A DNA stretch of 42,382 nt from a virus: positions 1 through 42,382 of the IMG/VR virus record IMGVR_UViG_3300005527_000103; one strand, written 5' to 3'. This document shows, piece by piece, positions 1-42,382 of this stretch. Both the position numbers and the translations under genes were made by a program. The notes beneath the pieces are model-generated. The model searched no databases and had not been told where the DNA came from. It was given only the letters and a program-made list of their open reading frames with translations. Position 1 is the stretch's first letter. Every line of letters begins with the position of its first letter.

Positions 1-322
1 GGAGGCCACATGGAAGTTACCTTCGCTCTGTTGTGCTTTGCCTCGTCATACGGTAAACCGTCACCCATAAAGTTGTATTGGTCGTGGTGAGGACGCTATC
101 CCCCATAGACAGGCATTACTATACAGCGTATAAGCCCGCTGTCAACCACACCAATCTTTCAGGCAGAGGCTTTCATAATGGCTTATCCCTATCTAGTCCA
201 AGGCATGGACCCACGAAAGTTCTTGTGATGGTTGTCTCTTTACCCTAAAGGCGAGGGTTGGTTTTGCCCGACAACTAGGCTGTAGCCTCTACTTTGCCAG
301 CATCACGTTTTGTTTTGTCTTA
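1..322 (-). ncRNA. Candidate structured RNA or long leader
   Basis: A sigma70-like promoter at 330-357 fires leftward into this stretch, yet the minus strand shows only very short reading frames. It can form several local hairpins instead: an ACCCT/AGGGT stem inside a GTTGTC/GACAAC stem (about 230-275), GTCCA/TGGAC (about 200-215), ACAGCG/CGCTGT (about 122-142), and CTAT/ATAG around five G. The GACAGCG arm near 136-142 could pair with either CGCTGT or a more distant CTGTC, which would be mutually exclusive folds. A frame opening at 68 (MGDGLPYDEAKHN...) runs off the left edge without a good ribosome binding site and could be the start of a gene. No known RNA family is recognised. The RNA call is inference from pairing by eye and lack of ORFs. 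Confidence 0.3.
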
Positions 323-329
323 CTCTTTC

Positions 330-357
330 ATTCTACACTCTAGTATCGGTTTGTCAA
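330..357 (-). promoter_or_regulatory. Early promoter, CCGATA type
   Basis: Minus strand: TTGACA (352-357), 16-bp spacer beginning AACCGATA, TAGAAT (330-335). A T-rich tract lies just upstream (358-380). It matches the other left-arm promoters in layout and drives the candidate structured RNA. Confidence 0.75.
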
Positions 358-362
358 CAGAA

Positions 363-397
363 GAAAATTAGAAAAAAATTCCTGCCAATTTGGCAGG
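363..397 (-). terminator. Probable terminator of the 439-846 gene
   Basis: On the minus strand the palindrome at 381-397 makes a 7-bp stem (CCTGCCA/TGGCAGG) with a 3-base loop, followed by AATTTTTTTC. This is a compact intrinsic-terminator layout. The same T-rich tract also sits upstream of the next promoter, so it may serve both jobs. Confidence 0.45.
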
Positions 398-425
398 TCG
401 TGCGGCCCGGCTGCCAAGATGGCAG
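382..425. repeat. Palindrome pair 1, 14-bp spacer
   Basis: Two copies of the 15-bp palindrome: CTGCCAATTTGGCAG (382-396) and CTGCCAAGATGGCAG (411-425), separated by the 14-bp GC-rich spacer 397-410. This is the first of six pairs with identical spacing. Confidence 0.9.
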
Positions 426-438
426 GGCCAGAACCCCC

Positions 439-846
439 TCAAAAGAGGAGGCTGGCCAAGCCGGTCTTGAACATCACGCCACCCAGCAGTGGACGACGCA
501 CGTTACGGGTACGCTCCGCATAGAAGTTGCGAATCTTACCATCACAAGTCTGTGCGGTAATAAGATGCTTACTACGCTGGAACATCGGATCATATCGACG
601 ATAGTTGCTCTTAGCATTGAGTCGTGCAATGTAATCTTCCGAAAAACGATGCACTTCCAGCACCTTTGCCATGAAACGCTCGGGCTTTCCAGTAACGGGC
701 TGAAGATACTCAAAATTATAGACCTTACCAACCCTAGCATTGCTCAGATTATCACGCAAGCCGGAGTAGATATGAAAAGCGGCAAAACCAACCAGCAAAC
801 CAGCAACACCAGCAAACAGAGAAGCAAACAGCATCGTATCGTTCAT
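439..846 (-). CDS. Small membrane-anchored phage protein, unknown function
   Basis: The 135-residue product starts at the ATG at 846, chosen because AAAGG lies 7 bases upstream; a TTG two codons earlier is less likely. Residues about 4-28 are hydrophobic (MLFASLFAGVAGLLVGFAA) and should form one membrane helix. The rest is basic and soluble, with a conserved-looking stretch VGKVYNFEYLQPVTGKPERF and a tail containing NFYAERTRNVRR. This suggests a single-pass inner-membrane protein with a cytoplasmic domain. It has its own promoter (886-914), whose -35 overlaps the stop codon of the preceding gene, and is followed by a palindrome/T-tract terminator. I do not recognise a function. Confidence 0.8.
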   Translation of the reverse strand: MNDTMLFASLFAGVAGLLVGFAAFHIYSGLRDNLSNARVGKVYNFEYLQPVTGKPERFMAKVLEVHRFSEDYIARLNAKSNYRRYDPMFQRSKHLITAQTCDGKIRNFYAERTRNVRRPLLGGVMFKTGLASLLF

Positions 847-885
847 AATCAAACCTTTCGTATAGAAGATTCACTCAATGCACCA

Positions 886-914
886 ATCATACATCTCTTA
901 TCGGCACTTGTCAA
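886..914 (-). promoter_or_regulatory. Early promoter overlapping a stop codon
   Basis: TTGACA (909-914), 17-bp spacer with GCCGATA, TATGAT (886-891). The TGA stop of the upstream gene (911-913) lies inside TTGACA. Drives the 439-846 gene. Confidence 0.75.
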
Positions 915-1144
915 GCCTCAACTTTAGGAAGTTTCTTAATCTTCTCCAGAATCTCAGCAACTCCAGCAAAATCAAGAAATCCCTCCACATCGTTAGTAAC
1001 GGGCGTTGTATAACACAGATCGTCACCCTTAGTAACGGCAACCTCAAAAAGTCCATCACTATTACCATAGGACATGCTATTACAAACAACGCTAGCACCG
1101 TAGCCATTGTCAAATTTAAACTGTTTACTATATCCGCCAAGCAT
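911..1144 (-). CDS. Small phage protein, unknown function
   Basis: The 77-residue product begins at the ATG at 1144 behind AAAGGAACAAAA. The first half is aromatic and glycine-rich (MLGGYSKQFKFDNGYG); the second half looks helical and ends in a lysine-rich segment (ILEKIKKLPKVEA). There is no signal peptide or membrane segment. A minus-strand frame at 898-1140 overlaps it but lacks a ribosome binding site, so this frame is preferred. The stop TGA is embedded in the -35 box of the next promoter, leaving no intergenic space. Function unknown. Confidence 0.75.
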   Translation of the reverse strand: MLGGYSKQFKFDNGYGASVVCNSMSYGNSDGLFEVAVTKGDDLCYTTPVTNDVEGFLDFAGVAEILEKIKKLPKVEA

Positions 1145-1195
1145 TTTTGTTCCTTTCGTTTCTCTGATTATACTCTATGATCGACCGATGCCTAA

Positions 1196-1224
1196 AGTCT
1201 ACAGTATAGATCGGCAATTGTCAA
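1196..1224 (-). promoter_or_regulatory. Early promoter overlapping a stop codon
   Basis: TTGACA (1219-1224), 17-bp spacer containing GCCGATC, TAGACT (1196-1201). The TGA at 1221-1223 is the stop of the upstream gene. A second possible -10, TATAAT, lies closer to the gene at about 1167-1172 with a poor -35, so two starts are possible. Confidence 0.7.
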
Positions 1225-1466
1225 GCGGCATCTTCAACAAAATCTTGAACCCAATCCGCATTGATAGCATCGCGGTCGATACCACTATCATTCCACGCAA
1301 CATTGTCCGGGGTTTCGTAGCCAATATCACCGCCCAAATCTTTCATACAATCAATAAATTCATCGTATGAGGAACACTGTCTAGCAAGATTATACAAACC
1401 CTCATCATTATTGATCCAAAGAACCACATTCCAAGTCTCATAATTCTTGAAGCCGTTGTAGGTCAT
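1221..1466 (-). CDS. Conserved NYETWN-type small phage protein
   Basis: The 81-residue acidic protein starts MTYNGFKNYETWNVVLWINN. The motif NYETWN-V-LWI-N-(D/E)-LY is, from memory, typical of a small protein family widespread in phages and bacteria with no assigned biochemical role. The ATG at 1466 follows GAGGAAAAGAAA. It forms its own transcription unit under the promoter at 1492-1519. The C-terminal half is rich in Asp and Trp (DNVAWNDSGIDRDAINADW). There is no membrane segment. Function unknown; family recognition fairly sure. Confidence 0.85.
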   Translation of the reverse strand: MTYNGFKNYETWNVVLWINNDEGLYNLARQCSSYDEFIDCMKDLGGDIGYETPDNVAWNDSGIDRDAINADWVQDFVEDAA

Positions 1467-1491
1467 TTTCTTTTCCTCGGGTTATGTTCTG

Positions 1492-1519
1492 ATTCTACAG
1501 TAGAATATCGGCTTGTCAA
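1492..1519 (-). promoter_or_regulatory. Early promoter, CCGATA type
   Basis: TTGACA (1514-1519), 16-bp spacer beginning AGCCGATA, TAGAAT (1492-1497). Drives the NYETWN gene. Confidence 0.8.
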
Positions 1520-1532
1520 GAGGTAAAACATT

Positions 1533-1576
1533 ATGCCAATTTGGCAGTTTTCGCGGCCGGCCTGCCATTTTGGCAG
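1533..1576. repeat. Palindrome pair 2, 14-bp spacer
   Basis: ATGCCAATTTGGCAG (1533-1547, last base of the dyad altered) and CTGCCATTTTGGCAG (1562-1576), separated by 14 bp containing GCGGCCGGC. Lies between the acidic-protein gene and the next promoter. Confidence 0.9.
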
Positions 1577-1592
1577 GACTTATGGTCTTTAG

Positions 1593-1805
1593 TTATTCTC
1601 CGCCATAGTAATCATCATACATTGGCGTGTCGCTATTGTAGTACTCGTCAACACCCCATCCACAAGAGCCGAACGAAGATTCAGCATCGCCATCCATACT
1701 ATCATCGTCCTCAAAATCATCAAATTCATCCTCGTGATCGTACAGTTCCATATCATCCTCGTGGAAATCATCATAATCGTCATAAAGGTAATCGGGGTGA
1801 CTCAT
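1593..1805 (-). CDS. Extremely acidic small protein, possible DNA mimic
   Basis: The 70-residue product has 28 Asp/Glu, no Lys or Arg, and many Tyr. The acidic residues come in short runs spaced along residues 5-42 (YDDYDDFHEDDMELYDHEDE). The start at 1805 follows AAAGGAAAAGTC. It is the second gene of a two-gene operon: the upstream stop TGA sits directly before its ribosome binding site. This composition resembles DNA-mimic or basic-protein-binding inhibitors that phages use against restriction or nucleoid proteins. That is an inference from composition alone; a low-complexity metal-binding protein is an alternative. Confidence 0.8.
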   Translation of the reverse strand: MSHPDYLYDDYDDFHEDDMELYDHEDEFDDFEDDDSMDGDAESSFGSCGWGVDEYYNSDTPMYDDYYGGE

Positions 1806-1816
1806 GACTTTTCCTT

Positions 1817-1990
1817 TCAGTTAGCGTTTGCCCAAAAGGGCTCACTAGGAACAACTTCGTCCACAATGCCGATGATATCGGCCCAATCCCAAAAGTCAAC
1901 AGCCATAGCAGGATCGTCGATAGGCTCGATCATACCCTCATCACGCATAGAAGCAAGAATCATGTTCACGCTATCAAAATCTTTCAGCAT
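1817..1990 (-). CDS. Small acidic phage protein, unknown function
   Basis: The 57-residue protein MLKDFDSVNMILASMRDEGM... ends in ...SEPFWANAN. The ATG at 1990 follows GGGAGAAAAAACC. It is the first gene after the promoter at 2016-2043 and is followed within 12 bases by the very acidic 70-residue protein, so the two are co-expressed. The N-terminal half looks helical, and the centre is Trp/Asp rich (VDFWDWADIIGIVDEVV). No known domain recognised. Confidence 0.7.
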   Translation of the reverse strand: MLKDFDSVNMILASMRDEGMIEPIDDPAMAVDFWDWADIIGIVDEVVPSEPFWANAN

Positions 1991-2015
1991 GGTTTTTTCT
2001 CCCTTGTATGCTACT

Positions 2016-2043
2016 GTTCTACCATACGTTATCGGTTTGTCAA
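2016..2043 (-). promoter_or_regulatory. Early promoter, CCGATA type
   Basis: TTGACA (2038-2043), 16-bp spacer beginning AACCGATA, TAGAAC (2016-2021). Preceded by CTAATTTTTTCTAG, an UP-element-like tract. Drives the 1990-1593 operon. Confidence 0.8.
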
Positions 2044-2074
2044 CTAGAAAAAATTAGTCGAAAAAAAGAATTTC

Positions 2075-2139
2075 TTTGGCACACTATTTGCTAGCCTGCC
2101 ATTTTGGCAGATTGGCCGCGGCCCCTGCCATTTTGGCAG
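2075..2139. repeat. Second repeat element plus palindrome pair 3
   Basis: The 20-bp element TTTGGCACACTATTTGCTAG (2075-2094) is followed directly by CTGCCATTTTGGCAG copies at 2096-2110 and 2125-2139. The 14-bp spacer 2111-2124 contains the perfect palindrome GGCCGCGGCC. Confidence 0.9.
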
Positions 2140-2150
2140 GCAGCCTTTTG

Positions 2151-2234
2151 TTACATATTTACAACCCAAGCAACAACGCAACCAAAAATGAAAGAAACAC
2201 TAAGTAAAACCTTGTCGCCAATAGTAAGACTCAT
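2151..2234 (-). CDS. 27-residue membrane peptide
   Basis: The short ORF MSLTIGDKVLLSVSFIFGCV...VNM has a single hydrophobic segment over most of its length. Its ATG at 2234 overlaps the stop of the preceding gene as TAATG, and AAGGAAAGAATA precedes it, which argues that it is translated. It is the last gene of the five-gene operon starting at 2978. Probably a single-pass inner-membrane peptide; function unknown. Confidence 0.5.
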   Translation of the reverse strand: MSLTIGDKVLLSVSFIFGCVVAWVVNM

Positions 2235-2335
2235 TATTCTTTCCTTACTGGAAAAATAAGATCACAAACACTATAAACACAAACAACACCAACAATAAAT
2301 CCCACACCCATTAGTACCCAGTTATTATCGACCAT
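2234..2335 (-). CDS. 33-residue membrane peptide
   Basis: The ORF MVDNNWVLMGVGFIVGVVCV...VRKE has one central hydrophobic helix (residues about 7-28) and a short basic tail, giving an expected N-out/C-in or hairpin-free single-pass topology. The ATG at 2335 follows AAAGGGGCCAAGG, and the stop overlaps the next start (TAATG). It sits between two other predicted membrane peptides in the same operon. Function unknown. Confidence 0.5.
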   Translation of the reverse strand: MVDNNWVLMGVGFIVGVVCVYSVCDLIFPVRKE

Positions 2336-2350
2336 CCTTGGCCCCTTTCT

Positions 2351-2512
2351 TTAGAATTTTTCTTTCAGCAATTTTTGAACTTCGCTTTCATAATCAATCT
2401 TTGTAAACTTTTGCCGCTCATTATAGGCATCTTCTGCGATACCTAAAATGGCCATAACAAATCCGGCAAAAATTACAAACATAAGCATACAAAAAAGATA
2501 AACAGGAATCAT
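2351..2512 (-). CDS. 53-residue membrane protein
   Basis: The product MIPVYLFCMLMFVIFAGFVM... has an N-terminal membrane helix (residues 2-25) and a charged helical tail ending VQKLLKEKF. The start at 2512 overlaps the stop of the 102-residue gene upstream (ATGA), a standard sign of translational coupling. It is the first of three consecutive small membrane proteins. Candidates for such phage peptides are holin-like, superinfection-exclusion or host-membrane modulators, but nothing here decides between them. Confidence 0.6.
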   Translation of the reverse strand: MIPVYLFCMLMFVIFAGFVMAILGIAEDAYNERQKFTKIDYESEVQKLLKEKF

Positions 2513-2817
2513 GAAACCACCATACCTTCCATGAAAGGATAATCCTTACCATTCAACCGAACGAACCATTCAAACTTACGCTGGTACACCTTGACGGGAC
2601 TATACTTGTTAATTCTATCCTTTGTGGTGCTGGTTGTCCATCCCCCCGAACGAAGGGTATAGGTGCCATCCTCATGAATAGTTACAACGGGCGTACTATG
2701 TAGTTCGATCACCACACTATTATTGGGCAGAATATAAGCCCAAGTATTATTACCAATCTTACGATTACTACGATTACGCTTACCCTGTACCATCTTGACC
2801 GCTTCGGCGTGAGTCAT
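2509..2817 (-). CDS. Conserved small phage protein (GGWTT-TTKDRIN type)
   Basis: The 102-residue basic protein carries the segments NNTWAYILPNNSVVIELHST, VVTIHEDGTYTLRSGGWTTS and TTKDRINKYSPVKVYQRK. From memory this arrangement recurs in small proteins of many phages, and no function is known to me. The fold is probably mostly beta. The ATG at 2817 follows AAAAAGGAAAAGAAG. The gene is second in the operon 2978 to 2151 and is translationally coupled to the membrane protein that follows. Confidence 0.85.
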   Translation of the reverse strand: MTHAEAVKMVQGKRNRSNRKIGNNTWAYILPNNSVVIELHSTPVVTIHEDGTYTLRSGGWTTSTTKDRINKYSPVKVYQRKFEWFVRLNGKDYPFMEGMVVS

Positions 2818-2834
2818 CTTCTTTTCCTTTTTCT

Positions 2835-2978
2835 TTAGTTATACTTCATCCGAACCATAATCTCAACCACTTCGGGCTGAACCATCACACACTCCCACAT
2901 ATACCACTTGCAGAAAGTGATCCATCCCTCTTGAGTGATCGTGCCATTCTGAAACATCTTCCACATCATCTCGTACAT
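2835..2978 (-). CDS. Small Met/Trp-rich phage protein
   Basis: The 47-residue protein MYEMMWKMFQNGTITQEGWI...RMKYN has nine methionines. The ATG at 2978 follows TAAGGAGAGAACA, one of the best ribosome binding sites in the left arm. The motif NG-TI-T-E-W--FC resembles short phage proteins with an (F-x-x-G-x-I-T-x-x-x-W) signature seen elsewhere, function unknown. It is the first gene downstream of the promoter at 3006-3033. Confidence 0.7.
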   Translation of the reverse strand: MYEMMWKMFQNGTITQEGWITFCKWYMWECVMVQPEVVEIMVRMKYN

Positions 2979-3005
2979 TGTTCTCTCCTTACTTCTTATA
3001 TCGGT

Positions 3006-3033
3006 ATTCTACACTCCGAACCTTGAATGTCAA
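3006..3033 (-). promoter_or_regulatory. Early promoter with the CCGATA element displaced
   Basis: TTGACA (3028-3033), 16-bp spacer, TAGAAT (3006-3011). Unlike the others, the CCGATA sequence lies just after the -10 box (TAGAATACCGATA), in the initially transcribed region. Drives the five-gene operon 2978-2151. Confidence 0.75.
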
Positions 3034-3061
3034 ACGGAAAAAATAGTGGAGAAATTTTCCT

Positions 3062-3105
3062 CTGCCATTTTGGCAGGCCGGGCGCGCCGCCTGCCATTTT
3101 GGCAG
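3062..3105. repeat. Palindrome pair 4, 14-bp spacer
   Basis: CTGCCATTTTGGCAG at 3062-3076 and 3091-3105. The 14-bp spacer 3077-3090 contains the 8-bp palindrome GGCGCGCC. Confidence 0.95.
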
Positions 3106-3136
3106 TTCCCCTACCGTAGTGGGGGTGGCGTTTATT

Positions 3137-3514
3137 TCATCCCTCCCACCCAAAGGGGGAAACTTCCTCGCCGCTGGCAAGAATCGCAGCATACTGTTCG
3201 GCCAGTGCTGCCTTGCGTTCGGCACTACCGGGCTTGCCCACCTTTACGATCATAGTATCCTCGCCACCGTTATATCGAGGATCGGTCTTAGACTTGATAC
3301 TCTTGCCCATACGGGAAAGACTCTTGCGGTTGAACTTGAGAACCTTTTCGGTTACAAGGTGTCGCTTCGCACCGTCCACACTATAAACGTAGTATGCGTC
3401 CTCGTCCTCAATCACCCTATCATCGGGAATCTCAACGAGCATCGGGACGGCAATCCCCAAGAAACACTTTCTGACTTGACGCTTTGCATCTTCGATGATC
3501 TTATACTTTGCCAT
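3137..3514 (-). CDS. Phage protein of unknown function
   Basis: The 125-residue protein has a beta-looking first half (VPMLVEIPDDRVIEDEDAYY) that is followed by a lysine/arginine-rich segment (residues about 50-80, KVLKFNRKSLSRMGKSIKSK). It ends with a helix and an acidic, Gly-rich tail. The ATG at 3514 follows GGAGAAAAAGTC. It is the second gene after the zinc-ribbon protein (3706-3557), with a 42-base gap and no promoter between them. The basic patch could bind nucleic acid. No family recognised. Confidence 0.75.
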   Translation of the reverse strand: MAKYKIIEDAKRQVRKCFLGIAVPMLVEIPDDRVIEDEDAYYVYSVDGAKRHLVTEKVLKFNRKSLSRMGKSIKSKTDPRYNGGEDTMIVKVGKPGSAERKAALAEQYAAILASGEEVSPFGWEG

Positions 3515-3556
3515 GACTTTTTCTCCAAAGGATACCGGGATTATAGGGACTAGAGA

Positions 3557-3706
3557 CTAATAATCAACCCCCCATTCGGGAATTGGCCAAACCTCTATTT
3601 CAGCCTCACAATGCTCTCCGCACCGCGGACAAACTCCCTGTTCTGCACAAATCGGGGTCATCATTTCTCCGCAGCAATCCGAAACAATAAGAATATCGTT
3701 TTGCAT
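3557..3706 (-). CDS. Small zinc-ribbon-like protein
   Basis: The start is the ATG at 3706, behind GAGGAGAAAGAAA; a longer TTG-started frame would begin inside the promoter. The 49-residue product has six cysteines in CC-x8-C-x5-C-x2-C-x3-C order (SDCCGEMMTPIC...CPRCGEHC), a layout that suits one zinc-binding knuckle pair. The C-terminus is acidic with Trp (EVWPIPEWGVDY). It is first in its operon under the promoter at 3736-3763. Possible nucleic-acid or host-protein adaptor; function not determined. Confidence 0.75.
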   Translation of the reverse strand: MQNDILIVSDCCGEMMTPICAEQGVCPRCGEHCEAEIEVWPIPEWGVDY

Positions 3707-3735
3707 TTTCTTTCTCCTCTTGCTTTCTTTCCCTA

Positions 3736-3763
3736 AGTCTACATTTAGTATCGGCAATGTCAA
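3736..3763 (-). promoter_or_regulatory. Early promoter, CCGATA type
   Basis: TTGACA (3758-3763), 16-bp spacer beginning TTGCCGATA, TAGACT (3736-3741). Preceded by CTAATTTTTTCCAG. Drives the 3706-3137 pair. Confidence 0.8.
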
Positions 3764-3793
3764 CTGGAAAAAATTAGAGGGAAAAAGATTATT

Positions 3794-3949
3794 TTTGGCA
3801 TAGGATTTGCTCGTGCAAAAAGTGTGCCGAAAAAATATTTTATTTTTGGCATGAAATTTGCAGCGCCTGCCATTTTGGCAGTTGGCGCGCGGCGCCTGCC
3901 ATTTTGGCAGCTTGGCTGCCGTTTTGGCTGGCTACTGCCATTATGTCAG
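3794..3949. repeat. Repeat cluster: three 20-bp elements, palindrome pair 5, two degenerate palindromes
   Basis: Second-family elements (TTTGGCA-N4-ATTTGC type) lie at 3794-3813 and 3845-3864, with an inverted, diverged copy at about 3811-3832. Perfect palindromes follow at 3867-3881 and 3896-3910 (14-bp spacer made of GCGCGC-type sequence). Two degenerate copies at 3916-3930 and 3935-3949 are spaced by 5 and 4 bp. No gene is visible in 3764-3979. Confidence 0.85.
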
Positions 3950-3979
3950 CCGATAGGATCGGCTGTTACAGTAATATTA

Positions 3980-4225
3980 CTATGCTGTTCTAACATATAC
4001 TTCATTAGTAACACTCGGCATAACACTGTTATCACAAATAGTAACAAGCCAGTGTCGTCCGCTACCATCCTCGGGCCGAATGCCATTTATAATACCACGA
4101 ATGATAGCCCCCTGTGGATCATGTAGCACGATTGCAACACGCCCCCTATCCATCATCTTTTGGCAAAGCCAATCATAACTATAAACCGGCACCTTACTAT
4201 CCACAACCATACCAGAAAGAATCAT
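3980..4225 (-). CDS. Conserved small phage protein (GRVAIVLHD / EDGSGRHWLVT)
   Basis: The 81-residue protein has a predicted helix DWLCQKMMDRGRVAIVLHD, then a beta segment with PEDGSGRHWLVTICDN, ending VYVRTA. The start at 4225 follows AAAAGGAATAGTAAC. It is the last gene of the operon from 4963. The mix of Arg-rich helix and Gly loop suggests a small alpha/beta fold. Related short proteins seem common in phages, but I know of no function. Confidence 0.75.
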   Translation of the reverse strand: MILSGMVVDSKVPVYSYDWLCQKMMDRGRVAIVLHDPQGAIIRGIINGIRPEDGSGRHWLVTICDNSVMPSVTNEVYVRTA

Positions 4226-4229
4226 GTTA

Positions 4230-4301
4230 CTATTCCTTTTCTGTAATAAACTTCTCGATCAGTCTATCATACTCTGGCAAATATCCTAATTCTTTCAGCA
4301 T
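4230..4301 (-). CDS. Possible 23-37 residue ORF
   Basis: The frame reads MLKELGYLPEYDRLIEKFIT... from the ATG at 4301, or 14 codons more from a TTG at 4343 that would overlap the upstream stop by 8 bases. Neither start has a good ribosome binding site. It ends 4 bases before the next start and fills the otherwise empty 4226-4335 gap, which favours a real coupled gene. Low certainty. Confidence 0.35.
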   Translation of the reverse strand: MLKELGYLPEYDRLIEKFITEKE

Positions 4302-4335
4302 TTGCAATGCAACAAGCAATCGGCACGATAGTACG

Positions 4336-4563
4336 TTAGCCAATCACCAAGTCGCTGGGGCTTCCTCCGAGCCTATGAAGCCCGACGGCGTTCGCTGGCT
4401 CGTCGCGATTCGCACAGCCATGCGGCCCAGTGTACGGGTGGAGTTTCACCACTTCCGCAACGGGATGCCACCTACCGGCTTCCTCATCCATGAGATTTAC
4501 AGGCACATCGCCAAGGCGATTTTGTGCGGCTTGCAGGGTCTTGATGAGTTGCGAAAGTTTCAT
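4336..4563 (-). CDS. Conserved small phage protein (GDVPVNLMDEE type)
   Basis: The 75-residue product begins with an amphipathic helix MKLSQLIKTLQAAQNRLGDV, followed by PVNLMDEEAGRWHPVAEVV, KLHPYTGPHGCANRDEPANA and a short tail. The L-G-D-x-P-V-x-(3)-D turn after a short helix is a recurrent design in small phage proteins. The ATG at 4563 follows AAAAGGAATAGAA. It lies in the operon 4963-3980, downstream of a 49-residue protein. Function unknown. Confidence 0.75.
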   Translation of the reverse strand: MKLSQLIKTLQAAQNRLGDVPVNLMDEEAGRWHPVAEVVKLHPYTGPHGCANRDEPANAVGLHRLGGSPSDLVIG

Positions 4564-4577
4564 TTCTATTCCTTTTA

Positions 4578-4727
4578 CTAAATGATATTACCATCACCAC
4601 GAATACGATACATAATACCGCCGATACTATACAGACTTATACCTTCGCCCAAGTGTCGAACAAACGTAGCCGAATATCCATGACGGGCGACCAATCGACT
4701 AAGCGTATTTTGGACTTGAATTGTCAT
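4578..4727 (-). CDS. 49-residue phage protein
   Basis: The ORF MTIQVQNTLSRLVARHGYSA...RGDGNII is basic and shows helix then beta hairpin character (LGEGISLYSIGGIMYRIRG). The ATG at 4727 follows GGTGAATAGTAAC, a weak site like that before the gene at 4225, and starts 8 bases after the upstream stop, so translation is probably coupled. It is in the operon under the promoter at 4990-5017. No family recognised. Confidence 0.65.
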   Translation of the reverse strand: MTIQVQNTLSRLVARHGYSATFVRHLGEGISLYSIGGIMYRIRGDGNII

Positions 4728-4735
4728 GTTACTAT

Positions 4736-4963
4736 TCACCGACTAACGGCGACCCTTTCATTCTTACAGTGTGAGAACATAAGCGTAAAGTACATGCCCG
4801 GATACTTTTTGGCAATGTACTCGGCTGCCGTACTCTTGCGATTATCGGTGGCACTCACACCTTGAACCACGTTACCATCCTTGTCGATTACATTCCAAAC
4901 CTTCTTTTTCTCCAGACGCGGGAGGCTACCGATAAAACTGTTGACGTTCGTGGAGTTTTCCAT
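4736..4963 (-). CDS. Small phage protein, unknown function
   Basis: The 75-residue protein is basic and has a central beta hairpin VWNVIDKDGNVVQGVSA followed by a helix with STAAEYIAKKYPGMYFTLMF. The DKDG turn is a generic hairpin rather than proof of calcium binding. The ATG at 4963 follows GAGAGAAAGAAAA. It is the first of five genes transcribed from 4990-5017. Function not known. Confidence 0.75.
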   Translation of the reverse strand: MENSTNVNSFIGSLPRLEKKKVWNVIDKDGNVVQGVSATDNRKSTAAEYIAKKYPGMYFTLMFSHCKNERVAVSR

Positions 4964-4989
4964 TTTTCTTTCTCTCTTTCTTTACTCCT

Positions 4990-5017
4990 GTTATACATAC
5001 CTTATCGGCAATTGCAA
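4990..5017 (-). promoter_or_regulatory. Early promoter, CCGATA type with TTGCAA -35
   Basis: TTGCAA (5012-5017), 16-bp spacer beginning TTGCCGATA, TATAAC (4990-4995). Preceded by a TTATTTTTTTTG tract. Drives the five-gene operon ending at 3980. Confidence 0.75.
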
Positions 5018-5047
5018 ACAAAAAAAATAAGGGAAAAAATATTTTTC

Positions 5048-5205
5048 TTTGGCACGATATTTGCTATGCCAATTTGGCAGGATATTTGGCACAAGATTTG
5101 CTACATCTGCCATTTTGGCAGTTGGCCCGCTCCATCTGCCATTTTGGCAGTTAATCTGTCATTTTGGCATTTGGCACGATATTTGCTAGTCTGCCATTAT
5201 GGCAG
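5048..5205. repeat. Densest repeat cluster: three 20-bp elements and five palindromes
   Basis: Second-family elements lie at 5048-5067, 5085-5104 and 5170-5189. Palindromes lie at 5066-5080, 5107-5121, 5136-5150 (14-bp spacer between the last two), 5156-5170 (degenerate) and 5191-5205. A-rich DNA borders it at 5018-5047. No reading frame occupies 5018-5240. This is a candidate origin or master control site. Confidence 0.85.
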
Positions 5206-5240
5206 GCTCGAATCGTGCGGTTTGGGTACTACAGTTTTCC

Positions 5241-5423
5241 TTATGGTAAATAGTTTAGAGTGTACCAGATTGCATCCCAAGTATCCATACCATCCGCGAC
5301 CGCGGACGAAAAAACGTCATCGAAACAGTAAAGGCTAAGATAGTGTCGCATGATAAACTTTCTACCCCCATAGGGGGGAGGGTCAAAGCGTCCCGAAAAA
5401 CGTCGGTCTATACTTTTGGTCAC
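5241..5423 (-). CDS. Small phage protein (DTWDAIWYTLNYLP end)
   Basis: The longest form is 60 residues from a GTG at 5423 that overlaps the upstream stop as GTGA, implying coupling but with no well-spaced ribosome binding site. An ATG at 5351 would give 36 residues (MRHYLSLYCFDDVFSS...). The C-terminal half, acidic and aromatic (ADGMDTWDAIWYTLNYLP), looks conserved. The sequence between the two starts contains a C5-TAT-G5 hairpin and a promoter-like TTGACC-16-TAGAAA (about 5357-5384), so the shorter form could have its own transcript. Function unknown. Confidence 0.6.
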   Translation of the reverse strand: MTKSIDRRFSGRFDPPPYGGRKFIMRHYLSLYCFDDVFSSAVADGMDTWDAIWYTLNYLP

Positions 5424-5653
5424 TCCCCACGGCCGACAAGTGCGGGAAGGGGAAAGTCACTCCAAGCATAATCATAGCACTCGTCAAGGTACACGGTAGC
5501 ATACTTGCTAGTGTCTTGCAATTTCACAACGATCATTCTCCCCTTATCCCCCATATGTTGAACCTTGGCAATTTCACCCGTAAAAACTTTATCGTCCCGG
5601 TTGCGGATGGCACTGAAATACATTCCCGGAACGGCCTGGATAGTCATATACAT
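5420..5653 (-). CDS. Small beta-rich phage protein, unknown function
   Basis: The start is the ATG at 5653 behind AGGAGAAACAAAA; the frame stays open further upstream but would run through the promoter. The 77-residue product has VPGMYFSAIRNRDDKVFTGE, then a basic strand segment GRMIVVKLQDTSKYATVYLD, and an acidic aromatic end YDYAWSDFPLPALVGRGE. It is probably a small beta barrel (SH3- or OB-like), an impression from strand pattern only. It is the first gene of the left arm under the promoter at 5694-5721. Confidence 0.75.
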   Translation of the reverse strand: MYMTIQAVPGMYFSAIRNRDDKVFTGEIAKVQHMGDKGRMIVVKLQDTSKYATVYLDECYDYAWSDFPLPALVGRGE

Positions 5654-5693
5654 TTTTGTTTCTCCTGCTAAGGTTTCGTTTCGTTCTGCCACA

Positions 5694-5721
5694 AGTCTAT
5701 CATAGGTATCGGCAATTGCAA
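5694..5721 (-). promoter_or_regulatory. Early promoter, CCGATA type with TTGCAA -35
   Basis: TTGCAA (5716-5721), 16-bp spacer beginning TTGCCGATA, TAGACT (5694-5699). Preceded by a run of T on the minus strand. It is the most upstream member of the promoter family and drives 5653-5241. Confidence 0.75.
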
Positions 5722-5914
5722 GAAAAAAAAATAGGGAAAATGATAGTGGGGAAAATTTCATCGCTCGAGTTTTTTGGTATGCTATTTGCTTGTGTGGCCG
5801 ATGGGGTTTTTCTGTTTCCCCCCAATAGTGGGGATTGTGGCCGCGGCGGCGGCGGTGGTCTAAAAACAATAAGCCATCCCATATAGAATTGGCCAGTTTA
5901 TTAGCCACTATCTA
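5722..5914. other. Gene-free stretch with one repeat element
   Basis: No credible gene on either strand. It holds an A-rich tract, a diverged copy of the 20-bp element (TTTGGTATGCTATTTGCTTG, 5773-5792), a CCCC/GGGG hairpin near 5816-5832, and a GGC-repeat block (about 5838-5856). It resembles the other control regions of the left arm but lacks the 15-bp palindrome. Confidence 0.6.
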
Positions 5915-5944
5915 TAAAAAAGAGCAAGCCTCTGTGAAGCTTGC
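5915..5944 (-). terminator. Intrinsic terminator of the helix-turn-helix gene
   Basis: Minus strand: GCAAGC (5939-5944), 9-base loop, GCTTGC (5924-5929), then TCTTTTTT. Lies 32 bases after the stop of the gene ending at 5976. Confidence 0.8.
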
Positions 5945-5975
5945 CCCTTTAGTACCACGAATCTTTTAAAATGAC

Positions 5976-6176
5976 TCAAACAGCGCTTGATTTTTTGCGA
6001 CGACCTCTTGGCTTGTTCACACCCAGCTTGCGTCGTTGACGACGAACCATACCATAAGTAACATTTTCGCCCGTCATTTCGCTTAGTTTTTTGGCCAACT
6101 CCAAATCACTAAAAGAATTGATATTATCCCGTATAAACTGAAGTTCCGCATCGTTCCATTTTTTATAAGTTGCCAT
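5976..6176 (-). CDS. Helix-turn-helix DNA-binding protein, putative regulator
   Basis: The ATG at 6176 (AAGGA upstream) gives 66 residues beginning MATYKKWNDAELQFIRDNIN. The first 50 residues fit a SANT/Myb- or resolvase-like helix-turn-helix: W-x-x-x-E-x-x-F-I-x-x-N, then DLELAKKLSEMTG, then a recognition-type helix YGMVRRQRRKLGV. A basic tail follows (NKPRGRRKKSS). It stands alone between the two arms, divergent from the late promoter at 6192-6219 only 16 bases away, so control of that promoter or of itself is a reasonable guess. Its N-terminus resembles that of the probable small terminase at 6967. Confidence 0.8.
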   Translation of the reverse strand: MATYKKWNDAELQFIRDNINSFSDLELAKKLSEMTGENVTYGMVRRQRRKLGVNKPRGRRKKSSAV

Positions 6177-6191
6177 AAATAGTTTCCTTAT

Positions 6192-6219
6192 TTGACAAAA
6201 AGTGTACAAAACATAATAT
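6192..6219 (+). promoter_or_regulatory. Forward promoter into the right arm
   Basis: TTGACA (6192-6197), 16-bp spacer, TAATAT (6214-6219), 38 bases before the first plus-strand start. No CCGATA element is present, unlike the left-arm promoters. Both boxes lie in the divergent intergenic space upstream of the regulator gene. Confidence 0.6.
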
Positions 6220-6256
6220 ATAGTAGAGTTGGTCTTTTTAAAAGCAAGAGGTTATT

Positions 6257-6394
6257 ATGAATATTGACCAAATTTCCCCCAGCATACTTCACGTTACTGC
6301 ATCAAACAACTTGGATGTTAGCGAAGATCTTAAACAAGAAGGTTCCAAAACCATAGCCGAACTATTAAATGAAGAAAAAAAAGAAGACGATTGA
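6257..6394 (+). CDS. 45-residue acidic protein, first gene of the right arm
   Basis: The ORF MNIDQISPSILHVTASNNLD...NEEKKEDD is preceded by AAGAGGTTATT. The C-terminal half is helical and charged (SEDLKQEGSKTIAELLNEE). It overlaps the next gene by 26 bases in another frame, which implies coupled translation. No family recognised. Confidence 0.6.
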   Translation: MNIDQISPSILHVTASNNLDVSEDLKQEGSKTIAELLNEEKKEDD

Positions 6395-8487: not shown

Positions 8488-8961
8488 ATGAAAAATCATG
8501 ATCCTTTTACCATAATTGTTGATACGCGAGAACAAACTCCGTGGGAATTTGGTTTCCATAATACGGCTAAAAGAAAATTGGACACGGGTGATTATAGTAT
8601 GGAAGGATACGAAAGTTTGTTTACCATAGAGCGCAAGCGCAGCGTGAGCGAAATTGCTAATAATTTAAGCGAAAATCGATTCAAAGATGTATTAGAGCGA
8701 CTGGGACGTATTCCACACAGTTTCATGATTATGGAATTTAGCATAGATGAAATTTATCAGTTTCCTGTGGGCAGTGATGTTCCCAAAAAGATGTGGGATA
8801 AATTGCGTATTAGTGGAAACTATATAATCAAGTGTTTATTAGAAGCTCAACTAAACTATAATATTCATGTGTTATTTTGTGATGATGCTGAAAATGCCGA
8901 AAGAGTGGCCGTAAGTTTAATGAAAAGAATATACGAAAAATATGGCAAACCTAATATTTGA
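8488..8961 (+). CDS. ERCC4/XPF-type nuclease
   Basis: The 157-residue protein shows the full ERCC4 nuclease signature: V-D12-T-R14-E15 near the N-terminus, G-D35-Y, and E48-R-K50. The rest is a helix-rich half (SVSEIANNLSENRFKDVLER...) as in single-domain members. XPF-family domains cut branched or flap DNA beside duplexes. A role in trimming branched DNA before packaging would fit the position: its 3' end overlaps the large terminase start by 20 bases. The helix-hairpin-helix domain of XPF/Mus81 is absent. Recombination or repair roles are equally possible. Confidence 0.85.
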   Translation: MKNHDPFTIIVDTREQTPWEFGFHNTAKRKLDTGDYSMEGYESLFTIERKRSVSEIANNLSENRFKDVLERLGRIPHSFMIMEFSIDEIYQFPVGSDVPKKMWDKLRISGNYIIKCLLEAQLNYNIHVLFCDDAENAERVAVSLMKRIYEKYGKPNI

Positions 8962-11900
8962 CAATGCCTGGCTAGATCTGGGAGATCTCGATAAAATAGT
9001 TATTCCGACCAATCATATGATTGGCCGAAGCAAAGAAGATATAGAAAATCCTGATTTACATTTATTACGACTATTAAAAGACCCACGATATTTTGGTACC
9101 ACAGTAAAACTATTATTCGATATAGAACTTCATCCTATTCAGATAGCTATATTACAAGAATTTTGGATTCGACCATTTCCTATGTTTGTGGCTAGTCGTG
9201 GTTTTGGTAAAATGTTAAGACCAGACGAACAACTAAGAACCCCGAATGGCTGGACCACAATGAAAAATATTAAAGTTGGAGATAAAATTTATGGCGGAGA
9301 CGGTAAATTAACAACAGTTATTAATAAAACAGATCTACAAAATAATTTAGATATGTATAAAATAACGCTAAGAGATGGTAGAACCATAGAATGTTGTGGA
9401 GATCATCAGTGGAAAGTATATAGTCAAAAAAATAAAAAATGGAATGTATTGAAGACTAAAGAAATGCTAGATTTTAAAAGAGATAGAATTGGAGGCAAGA
9501 GCAATGGAAAAGAATATTTGTATGCTCTTCCTATTAATAAGCCTTTAATAGAGGAAGAACCCCAAGATCTTCCATTACACCCATATATTGTTGGTGTGCT
9601 TTTGGGGGATGGATGTTTGACACAAAATAGAATAACTTTTAGTAGTACGGATCAACATATTGTAAATAGAATCAATAGTTTACTACCCATGGGATATTAT
9701 GTGTCCACCCAGGCAGATGGTATTACTCATGGTATTAATACTACTACTAATATACCATTCTATAAGATTATAGAACAAATTGGTATACATAAATTAAACA
9801 GTCACAATAAACACATACCATTAAATTATTTATATGGTTCATATGATCAAAAAATAGCTCTATTACAAGGACTGATGGATACAGACGGATATTCTAATGG
9901 AGAATCGGTTATAGAGTATTATACGGTATCATCAGATTTGAATAGAGATACTTTAGATTTAGCTAGGTCTTTAGGTATTCACTGTAAATCTACTAAGAAA
10001 TCATCTATGTTTCGTGGTAAAAAATATGCTGATTGTCATAGGATTTCAATGTATACAAACGAGGCTATTTTTAGTTTGCCTAGAAAATTAGATTATCTTA
10101 AACACACAATATCAAAACAAGGTCAATCAAAATACGACAAGGTATTTATTACAAATATAGAGCATATTGGTAAAGGTAGTGGCTATTGTATAATGGTTGA
10201 TAATGATGATAGTACCTATATTACTAAAGATTATATCGTTACTCATAATTCATTTTTAATGGCTATGTATTGCACATTAAAATGTATCTTTGTGCCGGGC
10301 ACCAAGATTGTGGTGGTTGGTGCAGCTTTTAGACAGAGTAAAATCATATTTGAATATATGGAAACATTGTGGCGAAATAGTCCTATTCTCCGTAGCATCT
10401 TTAATGGAAACGATGATGGTCCGCGTCGTGATGTGGACAGATGCACAATGAGATTGGGCGAAAGTTGGACAATAGCGGTTCCTATGGGTGATGGTAGCAA
10501 GATCAGAGGTTTAAGAGCACATATTATCATCGCAGACGAGTTCGCATCAATTAGTCCAGAAATTTATGAAACGGTAGTATCAGGTTTCGCTGCTGTTAGT
10601 GCTAGTCCTATTCAAAATGTTAAAGAAGAAGCTAAAAAAGCAGCTATGACAGAGGCTGGATTATGGAATGCTGAATTAGAAGCGGTACAAATTAAAAAGG
10701 GAAATCAAGCTATTATAGCTGGTACAGCAGATTATAGTTTCAAGCATTTTGCTAGTTATTGGAAAAGATACAAAGCTATTATTAATAGCAGGGGAGATCA
10801 GCGTCAATTAGAGGAAATATTTAAAGGTGAGGTTCCAGATAGTTTTAACTGGAGAGACTATAGTATTATTCGTATTCCATACGAACTCATTCCCAAAGGA
10901 TTCATGGACGATAAACAGGTAAGCAGAGCCAAAGCTACTATTCATACTGGTATCTATAATATGGAATATGCGGCTTGTTTCACAGAAGATAGTGATGGAT
11001 TTTTTCGTCGTAGTCTAATAGAAAGTTGTGTTACTAATGAATCTAAACCAATCATTGTTAATGGTCATAATGTTTTATTTGATGTATCAACAAAAGGGAA
11101 TCCTGATCTTCAATATGTTTATGGTATAGATCCAGCTAGCGAAAAAGATAATTTTACTATAGTTATTATAGAACTACACAAAGATCATAACAGAATAGTT
11201 TATGGTTGGAGCACCAATCGTAATAACTTTAAGGATCGTCAAAAAACAGGATTAGTTAATGAATATGATTTCTATAGTTTTTGTGCTAGAAAAATTCGTA
11301 ATTTGATGAAAATTTTTCCTTGTGCCAGAATAGGGTTAGATGCTCAGGGTGGTGGTGTGGCTATCGAAGAAGCACTACACGATCCTGGCAAACTAGAAGA
11401 AGGTGAAAATTTAATCTGGCCAGTAATAGATATGAATAAACCAAAAGATACTGATGATCAAAGCGGTTTGCATATTCTGGAACTAATTCAGTTTGCACGA
11501 GCAGATTGGACAAGTCAAGCTAATCATGGATTGCGTAAAGATCTTGAGGATAAAGTTTTACTATTTCCACGATTTGATGCTGTTACTCTAGCACTAGCAT
11601 TGGATAGAGAAAATAAGGATATATTAAATAGCGATATTAATAATGTGTACGATAGCGAAAGTGAGTGTGTGCTAGAAATTGAAGAACTCAAAAATGAATT
11701 AACAACAATAGTCATGACTCAAACTAGCACTGGTCCAAATGCTAGAGATCGATGGGATACTCCAGAAGTTAAACTACCCAATGGTAAAAAGGGTAAATTA
11801 AGAAAAGATAGATACAGTGCTTTATTAATAGCTAATATGATAGCTAGACAAATGAGCAGAAGTTTAGAACCAGTTTCATTTGATATAATTGGTAATAACT

Positions 11901-11998
11901 TAGCAGAAGTGGCCAAAACAGATGGTCAAATGTATAAAGGACCAAACTGGTTTACAGAAAACGCAAACACTAATATATATGGTGGGATTTATCGCTAA
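8942..11998 (+). CDS. terL: Terminase large subunit containing an intein
   Basis: The packaging motor and DNA-cutting enzyme, encoded as a 1018-residue precursor. After removal of the 346-residue intein (91-436) the mature protein is 672 residues. The ATPase has Walker A at residues 84-90 plus 437 (ASRGFGK joined to S), Walker B HIIIADEF with D532-E533, and a coupling segment AIIAGTADYS (about 590-599). The RNase H-like nuclease has D730 (GIDPASEKDNFT), D800 (IGLDAQGGG) and D956 (RKDRYSALL). Works with the portal at the procapsid vertex. Without splicing the P-loop is broken, so activity depends on the intein. The start overlaps the nuclease gene upstream; the downstream gap contains a palindrome CAATCATGATTG (12031-12042). 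Confidence 0.93.
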   Translation: MANLIFDNAWLDLGDLDKIVIPTNHMIGRSKEDIENPDLHLLRLLKDPRYFGTTVKLLFDIELHPIQIAILQEFWIRPFPMFVASRGFGKMLRPDEQLRTPNGWTTMKNIKVGDKIYGGDGKLTTVINKTDLQNNLDMYKITLRDGRTIECCGDHQWKVYSQKNKKWNVLKTKEMLDFKRDRIGGKSNGKEYLYALPINKPLIEEEPQDLPLHPYIVGVLLGDGCLTQNRITFSSTDQHIVNRINSLLPMGYYVSTQADGITHGINTTTNIPFYKIIEQIGIHKLNSHNKHIPLNYLYGSYDQKIALLQGLMDTDGYSNGESVIEYYTVSSDLNRDTLDLARSLGIHCKSTKKSSMFRGKKYADCHRISMYTNEAIFSLPRKLDYLKHTISKQGQSKYDKVFITNIEHIGKGSGYCIMVDNDDSTYITKDYIVTHNSFLMAMYCTLKCIFVPGTKIVVVGAAFRQSKIIFEYMETLWRNSPILRSIFNGNDDGPRRDVDRCTMRLGESWTIAVPMGDGSKIRGLRAHIIIADEFASISPEIYETVVSGFAAVSASPIQNVKEEAKKAAMTEAGLWNAELEAVQIKKGNQAIIAGTADYSFKHFASYWKRYKAIINSRGDQRQLEEIFKGEVPDSFNWRDYSIIRIPYELIPKGFMDDKQVSRAKATIHTGIYNMEYAACFTEDSDGFFRRSLIESCVTNESKPIIVNGHNVLFDVSTKGNPDLQYVYGIDPASEKDNFTIVIIELHKDHNRIVYGWSTNRNNFKDRQKTGLVNEYDFYSFCARKIRNLMKIFPCARIGLDAQGGGVAIEEALHDPGKLEEGENLIWPVIDMNKPKDTDDQSGLHILELIQFARADWTSQANHGLRKDLEDKVLLFPRFDAVTLALALDRENKDILNSDINNVYDSESECVLEIEELKNELTTIVMTQTSTGPNARDRWDTPEVKLPNGKKGKLRKDRYSALLIANMIARQMSRSLEPVSFDIIGNNLAEVAKTDGQMYKGPNWFTENANTNIYGGIYR
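9212..10249 (+). mobile_element. Class-3-type intein with LAGLIDADG homing endonuclease
   Basis: Inserted between Lys90 and Ser437 of the large terminase P-loop. Residue 1 is Met91, not Cys, Ser or Ala. Block A reads LRPDEQLRTPNGW; block B has H155 and Trp157 (CCGDHQW); block F has Cys416 (GSGYCIMVDND); block G has Thr434-His435-Asn436, then Ser437. Trp at B:12, Cys at F:4 and Thr at G:5 form the WCT signature of class 3 inteins, where the block F Cys replaces the missing N-terminal nucleophile. Between blocks lie the two LAGLIDADG-type motifs IVGVLLGDG (about 216-224) and LLQGLMDTDG (about 307-316) with both acidic residues, so the endonuclease is probably active. Splicing would restore GFGKS exactly. 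Confidence 0.93.

Positions 11999-40069: not shown

Positions 40070-42382
<2,313 letters not shown>

Follow-up and report, generated by a model that had tools for sequence, protein, structure and literature searches.

The left arm of the virus record IMGVR_UViG_3300005527_000103 (positions 1–42,382; these 42,382 bases are called the window hereafter) carries pairs of palindromes at the junctions between its early operons. Each unit comprises two 15-bp palindromes that flank a GC-rich core at a spacing of 29 bp; the units share one orientation, and in most cases a sigma70-type promoter lies downstream. As judged from the DNA sequence, these units are a real, recurrent and directional set of paired operators that exists with two exchangeable words, each in a fixed register, and that goes with early promoters. 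Our preferred reading, held with slightly better than even confidence, is that the pair is an upstream regulatory site of the early promoters, namely a paired operator that would be read by one oligomeric protein, probably an activator. The genes of the left arm are small and lie on the minus strand; those of the right arm, among them terminase and portal, are on the plus strand.

With up to 3 mismatches allowed and the whole window searched, the 15-mer CTGCCATTTTGGCAG occurs at 17 distinct sites, all within 382–5205. These sites give 32 strand matches against 1.1 expected, a number equalled in none of 100 shuffles. An earlier note on this DNA had described about 17 copies confined to the left arm, including six pairs separated by exactly 14 bp, and both the copies and the six gaps were recovered as described. 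When exact pairs of the 15-mer with gaps of 8–20 bp were searched over the record, four occurrences were returned, every one with a gap of 14 bp. The six pairs are:

382–425, minus strand: pair 1, CTGCCAATTTGGCAG, gap 397–410, CTGCCAAGATGGCAG; 24 bp upstream of the -35 of the promoter at 357–330.
1533–1576, minus strand: pair 2, gap 1548–1561; 13 bp upstream of the -35 of the promoter at 1519–1492.
2096–2139, minus strand: pair 3, gap 2111–2124, exact copies, with a sigma54-like site beside it.
Beyond pair 3, minus strand: putative promoter recognized by eye (TTGACA, -10 TAGAAC), which fails the scan.
3062–3105, minus strand: pair 4, gap 3077–3090, exact copies; 28 bp upstream of the -35 of the promoter at 3033–3006.
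3867–3910, minus strand: pair 5, gap 3882–3895, exact copies, with two sigma54-like sites before the promoter at 3763–3736 (103 bp).
5107–5150, minus strand: pair 6, gap 5122–5135, exact copies, within a larger array at 5049–5205.
Beyond pair 6, minus strand: putative promoter recognized by eye (TTGCAA, -10 TATAAC), which fails the scan.

Further copies accompany pairs 5 and 6:

3916–3949, plus strand: two degenerate copies after pair 5 (3916–3930 and 3935–3949).
5066–5080, plus strand: single palindrome ATGCCAATTTGGCAG.
5156–5205, plus strand: degenerate copy (5156–5170) and single palindrome (5191–5205), with a sigma54-like site between them.

Gaps of 4–5 bp, previously attributed to the degenerate extra copies together with a period of about 20 bp, are present at 3911–3915, 3931–3934 and 5151–5155. 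The period applies to some copies only, as other extras are separated by 26 bp (5081–5106) and 20 bp (5171–5190).

Relatives show the same fixed register. Viral contigs were scanned with a pattern that allowed 19–43 bp between palindrome starts, which yielded at least 118 stretches; the same scan of cellular genomes yielded at least 120, and the best 80 of 565 loci were kept from a terminase search. Gaps were counted in 195 viral loci and the window. With one arm mismatch allowed, 207 pairs have a gap of 14 bp, against at most 15 pairs for any other gap from -2 to 58 bp, so that the random spacers in relatives that had been named as contrary evidence are not what is found. Among the matches listed for one pattern, the 29-bp spacing that corresponds to this gap is seen in 119 of 191 viral pairs and in 0 of 142 cellular pairs. 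The gap-14 pair was likewise absent from the 6 cellular genomes examined, from 392 genomes of the phylum of G019 (reached via a Planctomycetes record, with G019 counted twice) and from 296 genomes of the phylum of G020 (reached via a Taibaiella record, with G020 counted twice). Pairs inside late genes, the other contrary outcome that had been named, were not found either: in four long records the 81 exact-arm palindromes (14, 20, 22 and 25) are each time confined to one stretch of about 5–20 kb. The gene caller used for these positions over-calls (coverage 0.91–0.98), and its intergenic counts were left out. One of the four records, G001, has a terminase 100% identical to that of the window and is nearly the window itself. 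Stray single exact-arm palindromes occur elsewhere in two other records (G007 and G010), and 7 of the 18 long records searched hold no exact pair.

Loci L005 and L029 carry the same palindrome pair around spacers centred on TA (GGTAGG type), with less uniform promoter distances. In the cellular loci L200–L319, many of them in metagenome-assembled genomes of Gemmatimonadota, pairs of TGCCAWWWTGGCA cluster, among the matches listed, at spacings of 21–22, 31–33 and 41–42 bp. As these values fall close to multiples of 10.5 bp, a separate system with helical phasing may be at work there.

The pairs also go with the next promoter. From the 207 gap-14 pairs, 26 without 400-bp flanks were removed to give 181, and a further 17 with repeated flanks to give 164. 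In one orientation the palindrome's central triplet mostly reads TTT, which makes the unit directional; for the counts of promoters and stop codons the pairs were oriented with this triplet reading AAA. A sigma70-type promoter in the coding direction lies within 200 bp downstream of 132 of the 164 pairs; the comparison counts are 37 in the 200 bp upstream, and 36 and 33 in the opposite direction. Where no sigma54-like site intervenes, 43 of 81 linker clusters (85% identity) have the -35 22–26 bp from the pair, and others stand at 12–16 bp (11 clusters), 35–37 bp (4) and 50–55 bp (10). Sigma54-like modules of about 26–28 bp can sit between pair and promoter; with one module the distance is 51–54 bp in 7 of 14 cases, and with two it is 79–80 bp in 5 of 12 and 88–93 bp in another 5. 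If transcription is assumed to start 7 nt after the -10, a pair standing 22–26 bp from the -35 has its palindrome centres near -66 and -95. The promoters themselves differ in their spacers: with a palindrome no more than 140 bp upstream, 121 have 16 bp and 9 have 17 bp, against 51 and 29 for early promoters without one (p 1.7e-7 by Fisher's test, not counting four promoters with spacers of 15 or 18 bp; the scan required a CCGATA/CCGATC or TCAAG word). In the window, the early promoters concerned are:

330–357, minus strand: early sigma70-type promoter, TTGACA-16-TAGAAT, with internal CCGATA.
1492–1519, minus strand: early sigma70-type promoter, TTGACA-16-TAGAAT.
3006–3033, minus strand: early sigma70-type promoter, TTGACA-16-TAGAAT.
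3736–3763, minus strand: early sigma70-type promoter, TTGACA-16-TAGACT.
886–914, minus strand: early promoter without a pair, with a 17-bp spacer; it overlaps the end of the gene before it.
1196–1224, minus strand: early promoter without a pair, 17-bp spacer.

The word CCGATA (or CCGATC), placed between the -35 and the -10 and 7–8 bp before the latter, is conserved in most early promoters, others having TCAAG. It is found in the window in the promoters at 330–357, 886–914, 1196–1224, 1492–1519 and 3736–3763.

Relatives without the CTGCCA palindromes of the window (class 1) have longer GTAAG/CTTAC palindromes (class 2) at the same kind of junction. In 32 of 33 cases the distance between neighbouring copies of this second word is 51–54 bp, and the core that they enclose is mostly GC-rich. 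None of the 47 arms examined holds three or more copies of both words. In trees of the sigma-like protein and of the terminase, 6–8 class changes were counted in each, at least 3–4 of them forced by well-supported branches; the class labels are slightly off in this comparison and in those of the helix-turn-helix (HTH) and sigma-like proteins and of the cargo family described below, in which L175 and L183 are listed as untyped yet carry class-2-like pairs, L183 lying in G006, which was counted as class 2. G003 and G010, which differ in class, can be aligned over about 103 kb with 78% identity; the record of G010 stops within the arm.

Under our preferred reading, one trans-acting protein, as two dimers or a tetramer, would bind both palindromes as a unit and would act on host RNA polymerase at the neighbouring promoter. 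Activation would be the most likely outcome, given a position resembling that of class I activators and the 16-bp promoter spacer, and silencing of the promoter a less likely one. The presence of one word per arm, together with repeated switching, fits what a single trans-acting reader predicts, and since the word differs among relatives, either reader and sites would change together or the sites would follow a different host protein. The proposal of the earlier note that a protein engages both sites at operon junctions thus gains support, short of proof, from the register in relatives, the link to promoters and the second word's own register. Among known systems, the late-promoter activators P2 Ogr and P4 delta use a dyad near -55 of a sigma70 promoter and activate via the alpha subunit of RNA polymerase. 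The dyad upstream of a sigma70 promoter is common to both cases; here, by contrast, the promoters are early, two palindromes stand in a fixed 29-bp register and the sequence is another one.

Several observations weigh against this reading. Repression or road-blocking would be expected to leave the same footprint as activation. Many junctions are orthologous, so that the counts are not independent and the promoter p values are optimistic. At 75% clustering, the peak at 22–26 bp falls to 9 of 35 linker clusters; outside it phasing is weak: at 10.5 bp p is 0.02, 0.09 and 0.17 for clustering at 85, 75 and 70%, and periods of 11 and 11.5 bp give no signal (p 0.17 to 0.94). No promoter was called within 200 bp of 32 of the 164 pairs, a promoter match is found even at 150–350 bp downstream in 68 of the 164, and of the six pairs of the window only 4 are followed by a promoter accepted by the scan, at 24, 13, 28 and 103 bp. 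The group of promoters without a palindrome includes at least one with a degenerate palindrome just upstream. The pairs also relate to the preceding gene, as an upstream stop codon lies 0–39 bp away in 75 of 164 cases; it is further off in 60, overlapping in 20 and not found in 9. To this extent the pairs do mark operon boundaries, as had been claimed, but the description is incomplete, because the distance to the next promoter peaks more sharply. As to the two words, the class-2 arm L182 holds, near 1390–1440, two truncated class-1 words (CTGCCATTTTGGG and CTGCCATTTTG) side by side. Some clustering of the classes is seen on the trees, with class 1 as low in 4 and 21 of 500 shuffles and class 2 in 40 and 44. 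Finally, HTH and sigma-like proteins are alike across palindrome classes and provide no candidate for the reader. It can be added that the truncated words of L182 stand just before a sigma54-like motif; they are perhaps the relic of a word switch.

Each of the known systems that could be invoked instead, namely stoperators, sigma54 systems, terminators and centromeres, fails at least one tested feature. The likelihoods that we give them are not exclusive, since sigma54 sites could coexist with a paired operator of the kind that we prefer. An improbable account is that the pairs are bidirectional or intrinsic terminators at operon ends, with the palindromes forming RNA hairpins. They do lie between operons, 75 of them close behind a stop codon as given above, and runs of T5 accumulate downstream. 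A terminator scan of the window returned 11 terminator-like sites against 5.8 expected. Of the pairs, only 1 and 2 have such a site in the gene direction, at their promoter-proximal copies (minus strand); a plus-strand site includes the end of pair 5. Yet only 19 of the 164 pairs have at least 5 T in the first 8 nt after the pair, and in the window a U-tract directly follows the hairpin in the gene direction for 2 of 6 pairs. The T-rich stretch is also found before 16-bp promoters without a palindrome, and thus seems to be the promoter's own. A fixed 14-bp gap without covariation of the spacer does not speak for hairpins either. Spacers are GC-rich in relatives as in the window, as the earlier note had it; its view that they are often palindromic holds for the exact centre step only (C-G or T-A in 127 of 169 distinct spacers, 103 expected), as cross-centre complementarity is not above that given by column composition. 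With no covariation across the spacer centre in these 169 spacers, a long RNA hairpin through the spacer is ruled out, and the nucleic-acid structure spanning the pair that had been offered as an alternative to a protein is left unsupported. The statement that the pairs are more than mere terminators is backed, although not proven, by the recurrence of the register in relatives and by the association with the next promoter.

Two apparent signs of RNA were set aside. The folding energy of the 44-nt pair is lower for the antisense strand in 132 and for the coding strand in 38 of 181 pairs, but U-U and A-A loops receive different scores in such calculations. In 247 degenerate copies, wobble-type changes on the coding strand are A-C in 101 and G-U in 30 cases (80 and 29 at the inner five arm positions). 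This bias is concentrated in one arm (A6 to G and C4 to T on the TTT strand), so a dominant TTTTGGCA half-site explains it equally well. Rfam models run on 1–6300 of the window gave one sub-threshold match only (26.3 bits against a cut-off of 47). On their features the pairs look like control sites that operate at the DNA level.

An unlikely explanation, but one to be taken seriously, is that the pair serves a repressor or road-block, supplied by phage or host, which stops transcription of the early arm or isolates its operons from each other, in which case the class would reflect immunity or interference specificity. In the stoperators of cluster A mycobacteriophages such as L5 and Bxb1, as presented in the relevant passages of PMC6550527, many copies of one word stand mostly in one orientation relative to transcription and the motif varies between phages, just as here many intergenic sites share one orientation, with one word per arm and different words among relatives. 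Those passages, however, describe 13-bp asymmetric sites and not spaced pairs of 15-bp palindromes that go with promoters, and the part of PMC9283540 concerned has them bound by a monomeric repressor. The sites considered here lie upstream of the promoter and not over it. In 12 records, which may be fragments, no match was found to Phage_integrase (PF00589) or ParB_N (serine integrases were not searched), nor any above the cut-off to HTH_3 (G009 has a weaker match below it; the search did not extend to other repressor folds), and there is thus no indication of lysogeny. It is highly improbable that the pairs are centromere-like partition sites, belonging to a plasmid prophage, or homology linkers for the recombination of early cassettes. 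Dispersed identical sites beside promoters, and a small cargo family nearly confined to one class, would suit such a role; the lack of ParB_N in the same 12 records, possibly fragments, does not, and for linkers a fixed 14-bp gap would be needless.

The use of the host sigma54 machinery, with the pair as the activating sequence of an enhancer-binding protein and the motif TTTGGCAY-N4-ATTTGCT as a true -24/-12 promoter usually facing away from the early operon, seems to us distinctly doubtful. This motif occurs six times in the left arm, against 0.14 expected in the window:

2076–2091, plus strand: sigma54-like motif TTGGCACACTATTTGC.
3795–3861, plus strand: two sigma54-like motifs (3795–3810 and 3846–3861).
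5049–5064, plus strand: sigma54-like motif TTGGCACGATATTTGC.
5086–5101, plus strand: sigma54-like motif TTGGCACAAGATTTGC.
5171–5186, plus strand: sigma54-like motif TTGGCACGATATTTGC.

As given in the portion of PMC8743547 concerned, the sigma54 consensus is TGGCACnnTTnTTGC, which the motif matches, and the NtrC box is TGCACCAnnnTGGTGCA, whose palindromic CCA-nnn-TGG core recurs in the palindromes described here. The -24/-12 element TGGCAC-N5-TTGC is present in phage arms. In ten records, 31 of 33 strict matches fall in the early arm and the reversed pattern is not found. The motif shares TTTTGGCA or TTTGGCA with the palindromes, lies 5–7 bp from the end of a pair in 42 instances, and is found as well in relatives that have the second word or no palindrome word at all. 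On the other hand, all 6 strict motifs of the window and 20 of 23 in four class-1 arms are antisense to the early genes, so that no gene is evidently served by them, and the promoters that do face genes are of the sigma70 type. The class-2 record G010 has all 4 in the sense direction. A strict motif is found in the 400-bp flanks of only 53 of 181 pairs, and no Sigma54_activat (PF00158) or HTH_8 (PF02954) match was obtained in the 12 phage records, which may be fragments; the activator could be a host protein. The sigma54-like module could serve as a decoy or as a half-site for the reader of the pairs, or else be a genuine sigma54 site.

The reader of the preferred paired operator could be a host protein with another layout of its chromosomal sites, or a phage protein that is not recognized as such. 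The small phage HTH protein suggested in the earlier note (5979–6176 of the window, minus strand) is not supported in this role: it is present in 39 of 39 loci examined without following the class, and the copy in L325 (G003, class 1) closely resembles that in L199 (class 2). A small, multi-copy early family (5420–5653, minus strand) was found in 16 of 19 class-1 entries, 0 of 22 class-2 entries and 0 of 7 untyped ones, in lists that hold duplicates, one record standing under two names. It is also present in L188, whose short arm shows neither word, and a wider query added one member in the class-2 locus L161. Its protein model is a five-strand small barrel (mean predicted local distance difference test score, pLDDT, 78.5) with weak matches only in the PDB, none at 0.001, the best being the Rho inhibitor YaeO (E 0.022). 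We take this family as cargo and not as the reader. Several other open reading frames that seemed restricted to class 1 were dropped because they are translations of the palindromes themselves. A planctomycete host, considered because the N-terminal FETLENKSVLS of a relative's subtilisin resembles surface proteins of planctomycetes, was supported by no family search.

The early genes of such phages decide host takeover. If the preferred reading is true, a short code in raw DNA would allow early operons and regulator specificity to be annotated in uncultured viruses, and the repeated word switching among close relatives would be a natural experiment on how distributed operators change specificity in step. 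The arrangement was not described in the literature searched (top-ranked matches among open-licence full texts). A bolder version, which we regard as speculative and quite unlikely, is a modular early-promoter code in which the fixed-register pair with its GC-rich core would be followed by optional sigma54-type modules, a T-rich linker and a promoter with a 16-bp spacer. On a switch to another reader, possibly a host regulator, the word would be replaced at all early junctions, and the sigma54-type sites would run antisense transcription that shuts the early arm.

Outside the left arm, a few features of the window were noted. The terminase open reading frame (8942–11998) has 1018 codons, and most of the best 80 relatives listed match it over only about 2,000 bases of DNA, as if the terminase of the window held an insert such as an intein. 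Positions 24201–34775 are a single open frame of 3524 codons. The end of the record falls within a simple repeat rich in serine codons (42060–42382), and position 42382 is probably an assembly stop.

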